A stretch of DNA of 64,000 nucleotides from a virus: the IMG/VR virus record IMGVR_UViG_3300046804_003463, positions 1 through 64,000 of that record. One strand, given 5' to 3'. The notes below the pieces were generated by a model. It did no database searches. It was not told the origin of the DNA and saw only the letters and a program-made list of their open reading frames with translations. Positions 13,313 to 25,279 of this stretch are shown here, piece after piece; within the stretch, counting starts at the first letter, position 1; the number at the start of each line of letters is the position of its first letter. A program made the position numbers and the translations under genes.

Positions 13313-13502
13313 TTACTTTATATTTTGCTTCTTCCATTGATTCTGCTATAACTTTTACCCATGCTATACCACCGGCAATTTCCATGTCAAATGGCACAGG
13401 ACCATTAAACTCAAACTCTTCGGGTATATTGATTTGTACTTCATATTCTTCAAGATTGCGTATGCGATTCATCACCGCATCAAACTCGGCTCGTCGTGTC
13501 AT
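13284..13502 (-). CDS. hypothetical protein, 72 aa
   Basis: Start chosen at MTRRAEFDAVM, seven bases after AGGAGA. Contains a beta segment YEVQINIPEEFEFNGPVP and a C-terminal WVKVIAESMEEAKYKV helix. Has its own promoter inside the preceding gene. Confidence 0.72.
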   Translation of the reverse strand: MTRRAEFDAVMNRIRNLEEYEVQINIPEEFEFNGPVPFDMEIAGGIAWVKVIAESMEEAKYKVNEYFESKYK

Positions 13503-14370
13503 AGTCATCTCCTATCACTCCATTGTACACGACTCGTTTCACAGTGTCAACTCTGTGAGCAGAATTTCGTGCGCCCATCACAACAATTACCTCATGATAA
13601 TCTTTTTCACCATTAACTTTGTGTACTAATATTGCCACGCAAAAGCCGGCAGGATTTGTGAAGCCTGTTTTACTTATTTGAACACCCTCTACTTGTGACA
13701 ATATAGCGTTGTTTGTATTATGTAGAACTAAAACTCTATTCTTTCTTTTACCTGGCGTTTCAATCGTCGTAATCTTTTTGGTAGAAATGTTTCGTATTTC
13801 TGGATAATTTGCCGCTTCAACAACCATCTGTGTTACATCACTGGCTGTGCTTACATTATATTTACTCAAGCCGGAAGGATCATCAAAACTTGTGTTGTAC
13901 ATGTCTAGCATCAATGCTTTTGAATTCATGTGATCCATAAAACGTCTACGACCACCGGGATAATCTGCCGCTAATGTTTCTGCTGCTGCATTGTCACTCT
14001 TGATTAGTAGCATATGAAACAATTCACCACGGGTATACTCAAGGCGTGGCATTTTACTGCCTGCATTTTTACTGAGTACAAGTTTACGATTCATATCACG
14101 ATCATAGTCTAATGCAACCATAGCAGTCATGAGTTTGGTCATACTTGCCAATGCACGGACTTCATCAATGTTTTGTGCCCTTGTAATTGTGCCCTCAGTA
14201 ATATTTGTGACCATTACCGATACAGTGCTATAAGTTTGCACTGTCTGCTGCTTTGCTTTCTTTTTCTTTTTAACTTTGTGTTTAGACTTGGCATCTGCGG
14301 TTGTTATCGTCAGAAAAAATAAAACAAAAAATGTTACAAGCCACTGTGTGAGTGTAAGTTTCTTATTCAT
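13480..14370 (-). CDS. penicillin-binding-type D-Ala-D-Ala carboxypeptidase/endopeptidase
   Basis: The 296-aa chain has an N-terminal signal peptide ending about TTADA, a Lys-rich linker, then the three active-site motifs of serine PBPs in order: SMTK at 76-79 (nucleophile Ser76), SDN at 125-127 and KTG at 234-236. The YTRGELFHMLLIKSDNAAAE and DPSGLS segments match peptidase family S11 (DacA/PbpG). It should act in the periplasm on peptidoglycan stem peptides or cross-links. It overlaps a 30-aa membrane peptide by 4 bases. A phage PBP is unusual; it might edit the wall before lysis or block superinfection. Confidence 0.88.
   Translation of the reverse strand: MNKKLTLTQWLVTFFVLFFLTITTADAKSKHKVKKKKKAKQQTVQTYSTVSVMVTNITEGTITRAQNIDEVRALASMTKLMTAMVALDYDRDMNRKLVLSKNAGSKMPRLEYTRGELFHMLLIKSDNAAAETLAADYPGGRRRFMDHMNSKALMLDMYNTSFDDPSGLSKYNVSTASDVTQMVVEAANYPEIRNISTKKITTIETPGKRKNRVLVLHNTNNAILSQVEGVQISKTGFTNPAGFCVAILVHKVNGEKDYHEVIVVMGARNSAHRVDTVKRVVYNGVIGDDYDTTSRV
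13522..13550 (-). promoter_or_regulatory. internal sigma-70-type promoter
   Basis: TTGACA, 17 bp, TACAAT, inside the 3' end of the PBP gene and about 20 bp upstream of the 72-aa gene. Confidence 0.68.
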
Positions 14371-15064: not shown

Positions 15065-15379
15065 TTACCACCTCTCTGCACGTTGCCATGTGTCATCGTA
15101 ATCAGCGGCGTAATCGGTGACATCTGGAATGTTGACTGCAAAATCCTCTATGTCAGGCATGTGTATCTCTTCACCTTTTCTGTGTGCCGAAAGATATTTG
15201 CCTGCTTTTGCACGTGTTGCTGCACCTTCAGGTGTTTGATGATACTCTAATAGTTTTTTTGACCGTATCGCCTTGTCTTCTTCAGAATGTACACGAACAT
15301 TACCACAAGACATGGAACAATATGGTCCACGTTTCTTGTGTGTTACTCCACATCTAGGACAGGTTTTTTCGGCGGGCAT
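15065..15379 (-). CDS. zinc-finger protein, 104 aa
   Basis: CPRCGVTHKKRGPYCSMSC is a four-cysteine zinc knuckle at residues 7-25, followed by a basic helix (AIRSKKLLEYHQTPEGAATR) and an acidic tail with VNIPDVTDYAADYDD. Probably nucleic-acid binding; such proteins are frequent in T4-like aquatic phages. Confidence 0.72.
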   Translation of the reverse strand: MPAEKTCPRCGVTHKKRGPYCSMSCGNVRVHSEEDKAIRSKKLLEYHQTPEGAATRAKAGKYLSAHRKGEEIHMPDIEDFAVNIPDVTDYAADYDDTWQRAERW

Positions 15380-15977
15380 TTTCTTCTAGTGTTTTCTCTA
15401 TGTATTCACATAGCCAATGACCTAAAATCAAATGACCTTCTTGTATGCGTGGTGTTGACGTTGATGGTATGGCAATGTAATAATCTGAGTAGTCATGCAT
15501 CCATCTTGTTTTCATACCAGTAAATGCAACATTGACTAGACCATTCATGTGGCCAAATTTCATTGCTTCAAGAATGTTTTCTGATAAACCTGAGGTTGAA
15601 AGATAGATTGCTACATCACCAGGATTTGAAAGTGCTTGTAGTTGTCTTGAAAAGATATGCTTGAAACCCAAATCATTACCAATTGCAGTGAGAATTGAGG
15701 TGTCAGTGTTCAAAGCAATAGCGGCATATGCATCACTCTGTAAATTGAAATAAGAAACTAATTCACCAGCAAGATGTTGTGCTTCTGCTGCTGAACCACC
15801 ATTGCCCATGAAAAATATTTTTTTATTGTTCAACAAGGCACTCACACATGCCTGTGCAGCAATTTTAGTTTCTTCTAATGGATTTGGTATTGGATGTGAA
15901 GCAAACTCTAATGGTGCATCCGCCAACAAAGAATCAATCACCGCTCTGGTGTCTTTCAAAGACTCATATATGTTCAT
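15354..15977 (-). CDS. gmhA: phosphoheptose isomerase (sedoheptulose-7-phosphate isomerase)
   Basis: The 207-aa SIS-domain protein begins with an N-terminal helix pair and has FFMGNGGSAAEAQHLAGELV, the hallmark phosphosugar-binding loop of GmhA, then IGNDLGFKHIFSRQL and IYLSTSGLSENILEAM. It should convert sedoheptulose 7-phosphate to D-glycero-D-manno-heptose 7-phosphate, the first step of the LPS inner-core heptose pathway, in the cytosol. No other heptose genes are nearby, so it would boost or bypass the host step. GAGGTCGTT precedes the ATG. Confidence 0.9.
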   Translation of the reverse strand: MNIYESLKDTRAVIDSLLADAPLEFASHPIPNPLEETKIAAQACVSALLNNKKIFFMGNGGSAAEAQHLAGELVSYFNLQSDAYAAIALNTDTSILTAIGNDLGFKHIFSRQLQALSNPGDVAIYLSTSGLSENILEAMKFGHMNGLVNVAFTGMKTRWMHDYSDYYIAIPSTSTPRIQEGHLILGHWLCEYIEKTLEENARRKNLS

Positions 15978-18016: not shown

Positions 18017-18727
18017 TCAACTCCAGTATTTACTGTTGTCCAATTTATCCCAATACTTTTGATTATTACGATTTATGAAGTTTTTGATCAAATACCAACC
18101 CATACCAAAGTACCCCATTTTCTTGAATCTACGGGAATCTTGACCAAAATAATGATTTAGTATTTTAAACTTTTTAGGTTCATACATTCTTGAAAGGAAA
18201 TAATCTTCAGATGTAGAAAACCTTTCATTGAAGCCCCCAAACGCATCAAACTTACTCTTACGGGTTAGCATGAAGGCACCCACAGCAAACGGAGAAAAAT
18301 GTTTCAAAATTTGATTGATTTTATTGAAAATAAAAAACCCAAGTTCCGCTTTCCAATCATCTTCGTAACATCTAATATTTGCTCCAATCAAATCTAAATC
18401 GTTCTGTTCAATCTCAAAAACAGCATCACGAATCATATAATTATCAAAAAATATCACATCAGCATCTATGAACAAAATATATGGTGTGGTGACTAATTTT
18501 GCGGCATTGTTTCGTGCCACAGCAACAGGACCACCATCAATGATTTCAATATTCAGAAAAGCACGATTGTTTCTAATTACATCTCTGGTGTTGTCAGTTG
18601 AACAGTCAGCAATAATAATTCTAGTGTCACCTATCTTCTGTTGACGTAAAGAATTAAGCAAATGATTTATGTAATTTTCTTCATTTTTGCTTGGAATAAC
18701 AATTGTGATTTTATCGCTTAGTTTCAT
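18017..18727 (-). CDS. family-2 glycosyltransferase
   Basis: The 236-aa cytosolic protein opens with TIVIPSKNEENYINHLLNSL and IIIADCSTDNTRDV, then VARNNAAK and the metal/nucleotide motif FIDADVIF, and later GAFMLTRKSKFDAFGGFNER and SEDYFLSRMY with the catalytic ED. This is a complete GT-A/GT2 catalytic domain with no C-terminal membrane helix. It follows plcP; in bacteria that make glycolipids under phosphate starvation, a glycosyltransferase next to PlcP transfers sugar to diacylglycerol. That role is an inference; LPS or virion glycosylation is possible. Confidence 0.85.
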   Translation of the reverse strand: MKLSDKITIVIPSKNEENYINHLLNSLRQQKIGDTRIIIADCSTDNTRDVIRNNRAFLNIEIIDGGPVAVARNNAAKLVTTPYILFIDADVIFFDNYMIRDAVFEIEQNDLDLIGANIRCYEDDWKAELGFFIFNKINQILKHFSPFAVGAFMLTRKSKFDAFGGFNERFSTSEDYFLSRMYEPKKFKILNHYFGQDSRRFKKMGYFGMGWYLIKNFINRNNQKYWDKLDNSKYWS

Positions 18728-18896
18728 CTTTCCTCACGCACTTTCCCTCAATCTTAAAATTGTCAAACTTTAACCAATACGTCATAGACTGTAAAGTTTG
18801 TTCACATTGTTGTTGTGTATCAAATTGTAGATTTATTCTTCCCGGTATGTCGTTTGAATTGTTCAGATGTACCGCTATCAATATCATCAACCACAT
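18711..18896 (-). CDS. small exported-type protein, 61 aa
   Basis: Its start lies inside the plcP 3' end (77-base overlap) and its end overlaps the glycosyltransferase start. A short hydrophobic N-terminus (MWLMILIAV) is followed by QQQCEQTLQ and GKCVRK. It resembles the 12269-12457 product in length and cysteine spacing. The overlap keeps confidence low. Confidence 0.45.
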   Translation of the reverse strand: MWLMILIAVHLNNSNDIPGRINLQFDTQQQCEQTLQSMTYWLKFDNFKIEGKCVRKDETKR

Positions 18897-19647
18897 TATC
18901 GCTCTCCTGTGTCCATGTGATTATTTCCCATCTACCATCATGGTGTTCAACAAGTGCTGTCATTGATTCTACCCAGTCACCGTCATTCATATACATTACA
19001 CCATCAATTTTTTTTATTTCTGCTTGATGTATATGACCACAAATCACACCGTCAAATCCTTTTTTCTTACAATATGCCGCTAAATTACTTTCAAATTGAA
19101 ATATGAAATCAACTGCTTTTTTTACCTTGCGCTTAAGGAAACGACTAAGACTAAAATAACCAACACCCATTCTATGGAGGATCCAATTGAATTTACTATT
19201 GAAAGATAAAATGGTGTCATACGCTTTGTCTCCTAGTATTGCTAGCCACGGAGCAAGTCTAGTAATACCGTCAAAAAAGTCTCCGTGAATAACAAGATAG
19301 TGTTTACCATCAGCACCAATGTGTTCTATTTGATTATGCATTTCAATCATACCAAAATTTAAATTATATTGTAAATATGGTCTAAGAAATTCATCATGAT
19401 TACCTAACACATATACCACTCTTGTATTTCTTTTTGCGTGTCCTAATATACGTCTTACCACATTTGTGTGACTTTGTTTCCAGCGCCATTTATTTTGTTT
19501 TATTTTCCAAGCATCAATTATATCACCAACAAGATAAAGTGTTTCACACGAATTATTTTTGAGAAAATTGTTTAGTGCTTCAGCCTTACAATCTTTCGTT
19601 CCAAGGTGAACGTCTGAAATGAAAATACTACGATATTTTTTGTCCAT
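18820..19647 (-). CDS. plcP: PlcP-type phospholipase C (calcineurin-like metallophosphoesterase)
   Basis: The 275-aa protein has all five metallophosphoesterase motifs: ISDVHLGT (Asp12, His14), GDIIDAW (Asp42), GNHDEF (Asn83, His84), IHGDFFD (His121) and CGHIHQ (His205, His207). The SDVHLGTKDCKAEAL start and NDGDWVESMTALVEHHDG end match the PlcP family, which cleaves phosphatidylglycerol/ethanolamine headgroups in phosphate-starved bacteria, better than LpxH, which has DLHL and GNRD. It should act at the inner membrane, releasing phospho-headgroup and leaving diacylglycerol for the neighbouring glycosyltransferase. An LpxH-like activity cannot be excluded. Confidence 0.82.
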   Translation of the reverse strand: MDKKYRSIFISDVHLGTKDCKAEALNNFLKNNSCETLYLVGDIIDAWKIKQNKWRWKQSHTNVVRRILGHAKRNTRVVYVLGNHDEFLRPYLQYNLNFGMIEMHNQIEHIGADGKHYLVIHGDFFDGITRLAPWLAILGDKAYDTILSFNSKFNWILHRMGVGYFSLSRFLKRKVKKAVDFIFQFESNLAAYCKKKGFDGVICGHIHQAEIKKIDGVMYMNDGDWVESMTALVEHHDGRWEIITWTQESDNVVDDIDSGTSEQFKRHTGKNKSTI

Positions 19648-19708: not shown

Positions 19709-21115
19709 TTAGAAGTTCAACTGGCTTCTGAACATGACTGCTTGATCACCTTTTACACGACTGCCCGATGCACCAACTAATTGATCAAACTTTGTATCAA
19801 CATAATTTACCATAAAACGTAGATTGTCGGTAGCAAACCATGTGATGCCATATGTCATAGCAGTAGCACGATTTGATTTGCCAGCCGCTACTACGATAGG
19901 ACTTGCATCAAACTCACTCATACGTACACCAACTTGCCATGCACCACGGCCACCTTTGTCTAAAGAATTGTTAGGTTTAATTGCACCAAACACACCGTCT
20001 TTATAATTGTATGATTCACCAGTAATATTATAAGTTGCTAAAACATAATACCCTTTAATTTCTTGATTTACACCAACAGCAGGATCATAAACGAATTCAA
20101 ATTGTTCACCTTGTATTTTAAAGGCATTATATGCTATTGCTGCTTCAAGACCTTGGCGTGTTCTAGTTGTCAAACCACTTAGAGCAGGGCCGGTAAACCA
20201 AGCATTTTGAGACCTTGATTCTGTTCTTGCACTTGATGGTGTAACTCCACCTTTAATTTCACCTGTACTATATGCAGCACCCAAATGTGCGACATATGCT
20301 TTGCTGCCAGTGAGTTCAGCAATGTTTGTGGTTACACGACCAATGTAATCAAGACTATCTGCTACGACATCTTTGTTACCACGACCACGACTGACTGCGG
20401 CTGCATAGGTCAATCCTGTTGTCGGCACACCATGAATCATAAAGCCTGTTTCTTTTGCAGGAATAAATTCACCTTCAACTTGACCAATCAGACTACGTTC
20501 CATCATATCAATATTGTTGGAACTTTGTAGTTGCTCTAAACTAAATGGCATTTTGAACAAACCAAACTGAAATTGCATTTCAGGATTGGCTGCATAGTTT
20601 ACCCATCCTACATCTAAATTTGTTGTTGATGATGCTGCGCCAACATCATTACCAAAATTACCCACAAATTCATATTTGAAGTCTTTAGCAAACTGTCCAC
20701 GAACACCAAATCTAGCACGACGAACTTCTGCTAAGTTTTGATACGAATCCGTGGTTTGACCGACAGCATAATTCGGTGAGTAGTGTCGATAGTCCATATG
20801 TAATCGACCTGTAAATTGTGCTGTGTTGTTTCCATCTTTGCTTTTGAGTCCAATTCCATTTTCGGTGACTGAACCATCATTTGCTCTGGCTTGTCTCCAC
20901 TTGTTGTTGTCGCTAACATCTTTGTCAATTCTTTGCTCGGCAAATTTTTTGTTTTCTTCTCTTTCTTCATATGCTTTGAGTTTTGTTTCATATTCTTGTT
21001 GAGTGATTACATTCTTCTCTCTTAGAATGTTCAATGTTTCTTTATACTCATCAGCATATGCAGGAATTGCCGCTGCTAGTGCAATTACGATAGAAAGTTT
21101 TTTAAATAGTTTCAT
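19709..21115 (-). CDS. OprP/OprO-type phosphate-selective porin
   Basis: The 468-aa chain has a signal peptide (MKLFKKLSIVIALAAAIPAYA), a short coiled-coil start (LNILREKNVITQQEYETKL) typical of this porin family, then a 16-strand-type barrel: FTGRLHMDYRHYSP, RARFGVRGQFAKDFKYEF, FQFGLFKMPFSLEQLQ, LEAAIAYNAFKIQGEQFEF and a final strand AVMFRSQLNF ending in Phe, the outer-membrane assembly signal. Length and ends are complete. It should sit as a trimer in the outer membrane and pass phosphate or polyphosphate. It follows pstS by 9 bp. Selectivity is inferred from the family. Confidence 0.86.
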   Translation of the reverse strand: MKLFKKLSIVIALAAAIPAYADEYKETLNILREKNVITQQEYETKLKAYEEREENKKFAEQRIDKDVSDNNKWRQARANDGSVTENGIGLKSKDGNNTAQFTGRLHMDYRHYSPNYAVGQTTDSYQNLAEVRRARFGVRGQFAKDFKYEFVGNFGNDVGAASSTTNLDVGWVNYAANPEMQFQFGLFKMPFSLEQLQSSNNIDMMERSLIGQVEGEFIPAKETGFMIHGVPTTGLTYAAAVSRGRGNKDVVADSLDYIGRVTTNIAELTGSKAYVAHLGAAYSTGEIKGGVTPSSARTESRSQNAWFTGPALSGLTTRTRQGLEAAIAYNAFKIQGEQFEFVYDPAVGVNQEIKGYYVLATYNITGESYNYKDGVFGAIKPNNSLDKGGRGAWQVGVRMSEFDASPIVVAAGKSNRATAMTYGITWFATDNLRFMVNYVDTKFDQLVGASGSRVKGDQAVMFRSQLNF

Positions 21116-21124
21116 GATTTATCC

Positions 21125-22147
21125 TTATTTCCAAATTGAGTTACCGTCAGGACCTTTTAGATCCTTGCGCCAGTTGTCTTGTACAAGTTTAACCACATCG
21201 GCAGGCATATGAACATACTCTAATTCTTCACTCATTTTGCCACCGTTTTTGTAAGACCAGTCAAAGAACTTGAGAACTGCACGGCCTGTCAATGCATCTG
21301 CTTGTTGCTTGTGCATCAAAATAAAACTTGCGCCTGTTGCTGGCCATGCATCTTTACCTGTTTGCCATGTCAGCAATAGATACATGCCTGGTGCATTTGC
21401 CCAATCTGCATTTGCTGCCGCTGTTTTGAATGTAGAATCATCAGGTAATACAAAGTTACCATCACGATTCTTTAGTGACGCATAAGGAATCTTATTGCGT
21501 TTTGCATATGCATATTCAACATAACCAAATGCACCTTTCAGTCTTTGTACTTGTGCTGCTACACCCTCATTACCTTTACCACCTACACCTGTTGGCCATT
21601 TTACTGCTGTGCCTTCACCGACTACTTTTGCAAATTCAGGATTTGCTTTACCAAGAAAGTTTGTCCAGATGAATGTGGTGCCTGAACCATCTGCACGATG
21701 AATAACTGTGATTGGTATTGCAGGTAGATTTATACCAGGATTCAAATCGGTGATTGCTTTGTCATTCCACTTTGTAATTTTACCAAGATGAATGTTTGCG
21801 ACTACATCTGGTGTCAGTTTCAGTTTGCCTGACTCAATGCCATCAAGGTTGAATACTGGTACTACACCACCGATGATTGCTGGAAACTGCATTAGACCTT
21901 CTTTGTCTAATTCCTCTTTCTTCAATGGCATATCAGATGCGCCAAAATCAACTGTCTTGGCTTTGATTTGACGAATGCCACCACCCGAACCGATTGATTG
22001 ATAGTTTAGACCAATGCCAGTTTGTGCTTTATATGCTTCAGCCCACTTTGCATAGATTGGAAATGGAAAAGTCGCACCGGCTCCAGTAAATTCTGCTGCT
22101 GATGCGACTCCTGTGAATAGCAATAATGATAGTAAAAACTTCTTCAT
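21125..22147 (-). CDS. pstS: periplasmic phosphate-binding protein PstS
   Basis: A signal peptide (MKKFLLSLLLFTGVASA) precedes EFTGAGATFPFPIYAKWAEA, YQSIGSGGGIRQI, DFGASDMPL and HRADGSGTTFIWTNFL, the phosphate-binding segments of PstS. Length 340 aa is normal. It hands phosphate to the host PstCAB transporter. Phage PstS genes are known in cyanophages; here it heads a porin/PlcP block. AAAGGAGATAAT precedes the ATG, and the leader upstream has two competing hairpins. Confidence 0.95.
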   Translation of the reverse strand: MKKFLLSLLLFTGVASAAEFTGAGATFPFPIYAKWAEAYKAQTGIGLNYQSIGSGGGIRQIKAKTVDFGASDMPLKKEELDKEGLMQFPAIIGGVVPVFNLDGIESGKLKLTPDVVANIHLGKITKWNDKAITDLNPGINLPAIPITVIHRADGSGTTFIWTNFLGKANPEFAKVVGEGTAVKWPTGVGGKGNEGVAAQVQRLKGAFGYVEYAYAKRNKIPYASLKNRDGNFVLPDDSTFKTAAANADWANAPGMYLLLTWQTGKDAWPATGASFILMHKQQADALTGRAVLKFFDWSYKNGGKMSEELEYVHMPADVVKLVQDNWRKDLKGPDGNSIWK

Positions 22148-22164: not shown

Positions 22165-22248
22165 AGACTACTAAAATAGTTCTGTGTAACGGATCCGTCA
22201 CAATTTAGAATTTTTTTTAATAGTCTGACCGCCGAAGACAATCAGACT
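22165..22248 (-). promoter_or_regulatory. structured leader upstream of pstS
   Basis: Two mutually exclusive stems can form in the minus-strand RNA. Stem A uses 22222-22248 (AGTCTGA/TCAGACT with a TTCG loop). Stem B pairs 22215-22226 with 22165-22176 (12 bp, one wobble), enclosing a palindrome ACGGATCCGT at 22189-22198. Both compete for the AGACT at 22222-22226. This resembles an attenuator or RNA switch; no known riboswitch class matched. Confidence 0.55.
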
Positions 22249-22251
22249 TTA

Positions 22252-24637: not shown

Positions 24638-25279
24638 TTACTTCTCCAATAATCTATTCACAAACTCTCTCAAAAGTTTATGATGTCTCCCTTGATGCCA
24701 ATGTTTATGTAGATATGGTTTACTGTACCAATACTCTTCTGCTTCTAAGTGTGGACCAATTAGTCCTATTTTGTTTTGTATGACTGCTGCTGGATCACCG
24801 TTGCTGTATCTGGCAATTGTTTCGAACTTTGATTCATCTCCGATAAATGCAGGTCCATCGTAAAAGAAGAACCTGTCTGTATTGCCTTGCCAGTCACATT
24901 CAACTGCTTTGGAATAATATCGTTTAGTACAGGTATTTGGTCGTCGTATGTATTGTTTGGCTTCAATGCCATCCACAATGTCCAAAAAATTGTGGTCAGC
25001 CCAATAAGCACCCATGCAAATACCGAGAAATCTACCACCATTCTTAATGTATTGTCTGACACCAGATTCATGATATTTAAACATATGGTCATAGGTGTCA
25101 GCATCGCCAATGCCACCAGGAAAGCAAACAATATCCACATCGTTAAAGTAGTCGTCTTCAATTTCATGTTTGGTAAAAAGTTTGTAGTTATAGTTAGCAC
25201 CTAGTGCTTTGATTACACCATTACATGATTGTACAGAACACCTTGGGTGCTGTACAAAAAGAGCAATTGTACAACTCAT
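24638..25279 (-). CDS. class I glutamine-amidotransferase-like protein (BPL_N type)
   Basis: The 213-aa chain has VCFPGGIGDADTY, the nucleophile elbow GRFLGICMGAYWA (Cys88) and GPHLEAEEYW (His177, Glu179), the catalytic triad pattern. The fold is closest to the N-terminal amidase-like domain of biotin-protein-ligase family proteins. Substrate unknown. Sits between nrdA and nrdB genes, so a nucleotide link is possible. Confidence 0.78.
   Translation of the reverse strand: MSCTIALFVQHPRCSVQSCNGVIKALGANYNYKLFTKHEIEDDYFNDVDIVCFPGGIGDADTYDHMFKYHESGVRQYIKNGGRFLGICMGAYWADHNFLDIVDGIEAKQYIRRPNTCTKRYYSKAVECDWQGNTDRFFFYDGPAFIGDESKFETIARYSNGDPAAVIQNKIGLIGPHLEAEEYWYSKPYLHKHWHQGRHHKLLREFVNRLLEK

Follow-up and report, generated by a model that had tools for sequence, protein, structure and literature searches.

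What would a phage gain from a gene for a phospholipase-like metallophosphoesterase that lies beside a gene for a glycosyltransferase? The question is raised by a locus in IMG/VR record IMGVR_UViG_3300046804_003463 (77,032 bases), of which positions 1-64,000 were analysed here and are referred to as the window. The record is viral, since it encodes gp43 DNA polymerase, a clamp loader, UvsX, a helicase of DnaB type and a structural protein of the virion, as well as SbcC/SbcD-like nuclease subunits; it is that of a T4-like phage.

Organization of the locus

A reading made from the sequence alone had recognized here a pair of genes, encoding a PlcP-type metallophosphoesterase and a glycosyltransferase of family GT2, and had inferred that during infection the phage could mine the phosphate of the host membrane while keeping this membrane intact. 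Both open reading frames lie where they had been placed, adjacent and in the same direction on the minus strand (Table 1), and the pair is real. What had been missed is its surroundings, namely the upstream genes pstS and a porin, a gene for a 61-aa protein and an RNA element. The order of the cassette, which runs in one direction on the minus strand, is pstS–porin–plcP–small ORF–GT2. Because there is a likely terminator after nrdB, pstS is probably the first gene of a separate transcription unit; this terminator was predicted by eye only.

Table 1. Features of the phosphate and lipid cassette in the window.
Feature	Position	Strand	Basis
plcP: predicted PlcP-type metallophospholipase C, lineage A of viral PlcP, 275 aa	18820..19647	-	identity, tree, motifs
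GT2 glycosyltransferase, 236 aa	18017..18727	-	Pfam, invariant residues, GT-A model
Gene for 61-aa protein, in another frame, overlapping the plcP 3' end	18711..18896	-	sequence conservation
Covarying RNA element with two hairpins, separated by 1 base from the plcP start codon	19649..19697	-	model R1, covariation
Phosphate-selective-type outer membrane porin (Porin_O_P)	19709..21115	-	PF07396 8e-44
PstS periplasmic phosphate-binding protein	21125..22147	-	NCBIfam PRK10918 421.9 bits (cutoff 339); phrog_5385 1.7e-62
Palindromic site TTGTGACGGATCCGTTACA, upstream of pstS	22185..22203	.	read from sequence; kept in close relatives of the window
Likely intrinsic terminator downstream of nrdB (a hairpin followed by a homopolymer run)	22211..22249	-	by eye from sequence

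Identity of the metallophosphoesterase

Relatives of the metallophosphoesterase are publicly annotated as UDP-2,3-diacylglucosamine diphosphatase, and there is remote homology to LpxH structures. If database annotation were followed, the protein would be LpxH and would alter lipid A synthesis. This is contradicted by the tree, by sequence identity, by the motifs and by the scores against family cut-offs. The references were a PlcP from Sinorhizobium meliloti (L335, a locus beside AHL synthase and LuxR genes in public record CP090106.1), which we take to be SMc00171 from its sinI/sinR neighbourhood, a Pseudomonas aeruginosa plasmid copy of PA3219 (L336, recognized by its neighbours cyaB and a GT4), Escherichia coli lpxH, and true LpxH from bacteria that also have a PlcP-like gene. 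In an IQ-TREE phylogeny, the check that the sequence-only reading had proposed, a split with support of 100/100 divides all LpxH from all phage and PlcP proteins, so that the window protein groups with PlcP and apart from LpxH. The viral proteins form two PlcP lineages in the tree, A (that of the window) and B (Mosig-like).

The window protein, which has a Metallophos domain (Pfam, 1.5e-12), is 53.7% identical over 246 aa to the PA3219 ortholog of P. aeruginosa and 46.2% identical over 260 aa to the S. meliloti PlcP ortholog, but only 21.7% identical over 120 aa to E. coli LpxH. By comparison, the identity between PA3219 and the other two proven PlcPs is 46-47% (PMC8528852). The metal-binding motifs DxH, GD, GNHD, HGD and GHxH are all present and correspond to invariant alignment columns. 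The phage proteins have GNHD in place of the GNRD of LpxH, and those of lineages A and B share YMNDGDWVES, a motif that has no counterpart in LpxH. The motifs listed previously (SDVHLGT, GDIID, GNHDEF, HGDFFD, GHIHQ, NDGDWVES) are all found, although NDGDWVES, taken for the ending of the protein, occupies residues 221-228 of 275. Scores were far below the LpxH equivalog cut-offs (45.6 versus 134 bits, and 34 versus 190.35 bits). Of 12 bacterial genomes searched, 11 have a true LpxH that scores above the cut-off, and in at least 6 of these it is accompanied by a PlcP-like paralog that scores below. Membership of LpxH is ruled out on these grounds, leaving that reading the barest of chances, and by sequence comparison the assignment to PlcP-type phospholipase C can be made with very little doubt. 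dN/dS is 0.09-0.14 for plcP and 0.05-0.09 for the neighbouring GT2 gene.

Two of the reference records are unusual. The S. meliloti record (3.7 Mb) is named pSymB, but the presence of AHL synthase and LuxR genes, which are probably sinI/sinR, makes it probable that this is the chromosome under a wrong label. The P. aeruginosa plasmid, pPALO11, carries an apparent chromosomal stretch that includes the plcP–GT4 pair and cyaB.

The glycosyltransferase and its slot after plcP

The GT2 protein matches Glycos_transf_2 (PF00535, 3.9e-21), with invariant alignment positions in DxD (D88, D90), SED (173-175) and the QDSRR region (Q196, D197, R199, R200). Its predicted structure is of GT-A type (pLDDT 91) and best matches TarS/TarP and chondroitin polymerase, the matches being mostly polymer and wall glycosyltransferases. 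The acceptor is not revealed by this model, and no solved or characterized GT2 relative shows use of diacylglycerol.

According to the sequence-only reading, this would be the linked glycosyltransferase that makes glycolipids in phosphate-starved bacteria. A glycosyltransferase does adjoin plcP, but Agt, the proven bacterial partner, belongs to GT4, making the GT2 a substitute. Agt1 and its SAR11 homolog are proven diacylglycerol glycosyltransferases of this family (PMC8528852, PMC8231724). That the window enzyme might be Agt itself was considered and rejected, given its GT2 family and GT-A type model as against the GT4 family, GT-B fold and His-Asp dyad of Agt.

Neighbour clustering was carried out on 204 viral plcP loci, no two of them identical. 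Directly after plcP, 94 of these have a GT2 of the window type and 76 a GT4 of ~336 aa, while both together occur at none (0/204); the remainder are truncated (19/204) or have neither glycosyltransferase in the slot (15/204). Fisher's test for this exclusion gives p 2e-29, which can serve as a guide only, since the loci are related and the counts not independent. The GT2 occupies the slot in both plcP lineages, A and B. All 76 phage GT4s match the PA3218 (Agt1) ortholog with 35-43% identity across 317 aa or more. Every one (76/76) has the catalytic His, and the acidic position is occupied by Asp in 53 and by Glu in the other 23; only 9 have both UDP-sugar motifs in exactly the published form. 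The GT4s of the sister phages are thus Agt-type as far as homology can tell. The nearest cellular plcP genes commonly lie directly before an Agt-type GT4 (27 loci, by Pfam), as does the P. aeruginosa ortholog. On this comparison some phages carry plcP–agt itself, and the window carries a version with a GT2 in the place of agt. When a single GT4 of a sister phage was used as query, only 8 close relatives were recovered.

A scan seeded with the GT2 found relatives in 516 viral stretches. In the GT2-seeded set plcP is directly upstream at every locus that has upstream DNA; the exceptions without plcP (L371, L376, L377, L388) all start at a contig end. The pairing of plcP and GT2 is far from chance. 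Relatives of the GT2 were found in 9 of 399 proteobacterial genomes, with 26-31% identity, and in the search for a cellular source none of the cellular loci examined adjoins plcP.

We regard a functional pairing of PlcP with the GT2 as highly probable. It is inferred that the GT2 may glycosylate the diacylglycerol released by PlcP because its slot is exchanged with an Agt-type GT4, which is the best evidence available; neither acceptor nor donor has been shown.

Distant cellular relatives of the GT2 (L431-L435, L437) adjoin DedA-like proteins, and the one checked with Pfam has VTT and LssY_C domains. These neighbours are a possible lead to the acceptor of the wider GT2 family.

Phosphate genes and Pho-box-like sites

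Of the 204 viral loci, 35 have pstS and 25 the porin gene no more than 3.5 kb from plcP. A match to PstS was found in only 90 of 50,697 phage records, mostly cyanophages.

The classical form of the Pho box is the direct repeat TGTMAY-N5-TGTMAY. This pattern, which was fixed after some sites had been seen, was sought up to 160 bp upstream of plcP. It is present before plcP at 51 of 198 loci; 1.4 would be expected from its density in the same loci, and shuffles gave a mean of 0.1 and a maximum of 1. A TAAATA starts 11 or 21-22 bp downstream of all 52 plcP boxes, a spacing close to the layout of PhoB-activated promoters. The repeat also precedes pstS in 20 of 33 cases, and 77 of the 89 Pho-box-like sites in 1.8 Mb (both strands) precede plcP or pstS. 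No strict Pho box was found in the window's own subclade, and a search of the window for the CTGTCAT consensus gave no enrichment (8 matches versus 10.8 expected). Upstream of pstS in the window, the palindrome listed in Table 1 reads on the plus strand as a Pho-box-like repeat with one mismatch. The gap between pstS and plcP in Pelagibacter phage Mosig has no TGTMAY box, and an 11-bp-spaced TTAACA repeat is present there.

The cassettes of many relatives appear to be under the control of host PhoB, although both PhoB binding and induction at low phosphate are inferences from promoter sequences. In cyanophages, host PhoB is known to bind phage promoters or act on phage genes, but Pho boxes predicted in phages cannot be relied on entirely (PMC10976474). 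The adjoining pstS and porin genes, the exchange of GT2 and GT4 and the Pho-box-like promoters of relatives tie the gene pair to phosphate economy more strongly than had been claimed.

The small protein and the RNA element

The 61-aa protein has a short hydrophobic N-terminus and two conserved cysteines, and the C-terminal part encoded beyond the plcP stop codon is conserved in ~60 distinct sequences. Its gene is present at 81 of the 204 viral plcP loci and was not detected beside cellular plcP in the loci fetched (L243-L322). Structure prediction was too weak for a conclusion (pLDDT 67, pTM 0.40). The protein might be an accessory to PlcP or its membrane anchor.

Model R1 of the RNA element finds a single copy in the window (61.7 bits, E 1.9e-16), which was itself part of the training set. 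Its covariation score is 0.476 versus 0.175 when shuffled, changes on both sides of the stems number 69 versus 19.6 in shuffles, and 96% of the alignment cells in the stems are paired. The element occurs at most once per locus and in 43 of 95 sources searched, among them L007:9631-9680, L051:4910-4959 and L068:7204-7253. Elsewhere it lies 3' of glycosyltransferase or phosphate (pst) genes, often directly before a terminator-like hairpin. No Rfam family matches it. The sole Rfam match in the window, SNORD50 inside nrdB, is below the gathering score (33.1 bits versus 42) and was taken as chance.

Proposed role and alternatives

We propose that the locus is a phage-borne cassette for phosphate scavenging and membrane lipid remodelling, and put the probability of this at roughly 0.76. 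PlcP would cleave the phosphate headgroups off host phospholipids, leaving diacylglycerol, to which the GT2, or the Agt-type GT4 in related phages, would add a sugar from a nucleotide sugar. The resulting glycolipid, which has no phosphorus, would keep the host membrane intact. PstS and the porin would raise phosphate uptake, and in phosphate-poor water the phosphate freed and imported would be used to synthesize phage DNA. Membership of the PlcP family, the order of the genes, the exchange of GT2 and GT4 and the Pho-box-like sites of relatives are computed results. Conversion of phospholipid to diacylglycerol, the acceptor and donor of the GT2, PhoB control and the benefit to the phage are inferred, and no experiment bears on them. 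The earlier idea of phosphate mining from a membrane that stays intact thus gains support from the linkage to phosphate genes, whereas its biochemistry and any gain for the phage during infection are still inferred. That phosphate supply is the main benefit seems likely, if held with less assurance than the proposal as a whole. A bolder extension, to which we would give even odds, is that phages of many aquatic bacteria routinely turn host phospholipid into glycolipid with a three-gene module that has the host's phosphate-starvation regulator as its switch; this module would be phage-evolved and would comprise PlcP, a small partner protein and a new family of GT2 that glycosylates diacylglycerol. 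In that case virion DNA would draw directly on the phosphorus of the membrane.

PlcP could be a lipid enzyme and the GT2 merely co-transcribed with it, acting on another acceptor such as LPS, polyprenyl phosphate or a wall glycan. The structural matches to polymer and wall enzymes would fit, as would the ~30% identical cellular relatives beside DedA-like VTT/LssY genes, and phage GT2s are commonly modifiers of O-antigen. Against this, the GT2 holds the exact slot of the Agt homolog of sister phages, never together with it and in lineages A and B alike, and it always follows plcP in the GT2-seeded set; an unrelated acceptor is unlikely. A little less likely still is that the membrane is remodelled mainly for protection, with glycolipids altering surface or charge and blocking superinfection or membrane-active agents. 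Phage glycosyltransferase genes are often surface-modifying, and lipid renovation in P. aeruginosa alters antimicrobial-peptide resistance and membrane proteins, with effects on phages through the surface proposed (PMC8528852, PMC9804370). The physically linked genes for PstS and a phosphate porin, together with the Pho-box-like promoters, nevertheless point to phosphate stress as the trigger.

It is also conceivable, but very improbable, that PlcP aids lysis, late breakdown of phospholipid weakening the membrane and the glycosyltransferase being incidental or only delaying the damage. A phospholipase could destabilize a membrane, and the TAAATA near start codons might belong to a promoter of late type, which is weak evidence; the constant pairing with a glycolipid-type enzyme and with phosphate-uptake genes speaks for phosphate scavenging and remodelling instead of lysis.

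Relation to known systems

In lakes and oceans the production of phages is limited to a large extent by phosphorus, and the phage phosphate genes described so far are mostly for uptake. Should the proposed role be correct, membrane phospholipid would be a second, internal source of phosphorus, and the lipid make-up of infected cells would be changed, for which natural waters could be examined.

The closest known counterpart is the PlcP–Agt operon of Proteobacteria (S. meliloti, Phaeobacter MED193, P. aeruginosa PA3219-PA3218, SAR11 HTCC7211). The two have in common the phospholipase family, the order of plcP and then a glycosyltransferase, and a phosphate-starvation setting, with Pho-box-like upstream sites in many relatives; many phages even carry the Agt-type GT4 itself. 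The window cassette differs in being carried by a phage, in having a GT2 for the GT4, in the added 61-aa overlapping gene and RNA element, and in the adjoining pstS and porin genes. The GT2/GT4 exchange provides a ready comparison for finding the product of the GT2.

The phosphate genes of cyanophages (pstS, phoA) under host PhoBR are likewise a phage-borne means of phosphate acquisition, with PstS and apparent PhoB control (PMC10976474). Those systems import phosphate or cleave external esters, whereas the window cassette would target membrane phospholipid and rebuild it as glycolipid. Two virome papers place viral lpxH in lipopolysaccharide synthesis (PMC10653327, PMC9611531). The 'lpxH' of such lists may in part be the same genes under an LPS name, although the sequences were not compared; if so, and if our proposal holds, viral 'lpxH' counted as lipopolysaccharide synthesis may often represent phosphate-recycling genes.

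No phage system of this kind had been known to the sequence-only reading, and we likewise found no description of a phage-borne PlcP cassette, nor a match for plcP with 'auxiliary metabolic gene', in the literature searched. Papers that join plcP, lipid remodelling and phage concern host-encoded PlcP, as far as their accessible text goes, and the available part of a 2022 review of lipid renovation and phages contains no phage-borne PlcP. The novelty of the cassette is provisional, because preprints and most subscription journals were outside the scope of the search.

Distribution of plcP among viruses

A scan of IMG/VR found relatives of the window PlcP in 271 viral stretches, and a scan with the PlcP of pelagiphage Mosig found 109. 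Cultured carriers of plcP are Pelagibacter phage Mosig and cyanophage S-SRM01, neither of which has a glycosyltransferase beside it; in Mosig, plcP and a gene with the annotation phosphate ABC transporter are divergently oriented. Contigs with plcP or the GT2 reach 356,312 bases (L071, plcP) and 524,565 bases (L387, plcP with GT2), and these two viral contigs are apparent jumbo phages.

The sequence from a bacterial genome that is nearest to lineage A PlcP is on a Methylotenera MAG contig of 669,623 bases (L271). Here plcP lies amid dense, small, same-strand ORFs that resemble phage DNA, and the contig may represent a phage of very large size that was binned into a bacterial genome.

The window also includes a BPL_N gene (biotin-protein-ligase N-terminal, amidotransferase-like; 24638-25279, minus strand), relatives of which are near plcP in 33 viral loci. 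Other unusual passengers, both on the minus strand, are genes for a D-Ala-D-Ala carboxypeptidase (Peptidase_S11, 13480-14370) and a GmhA-like sugar isomerase (15354-15977).
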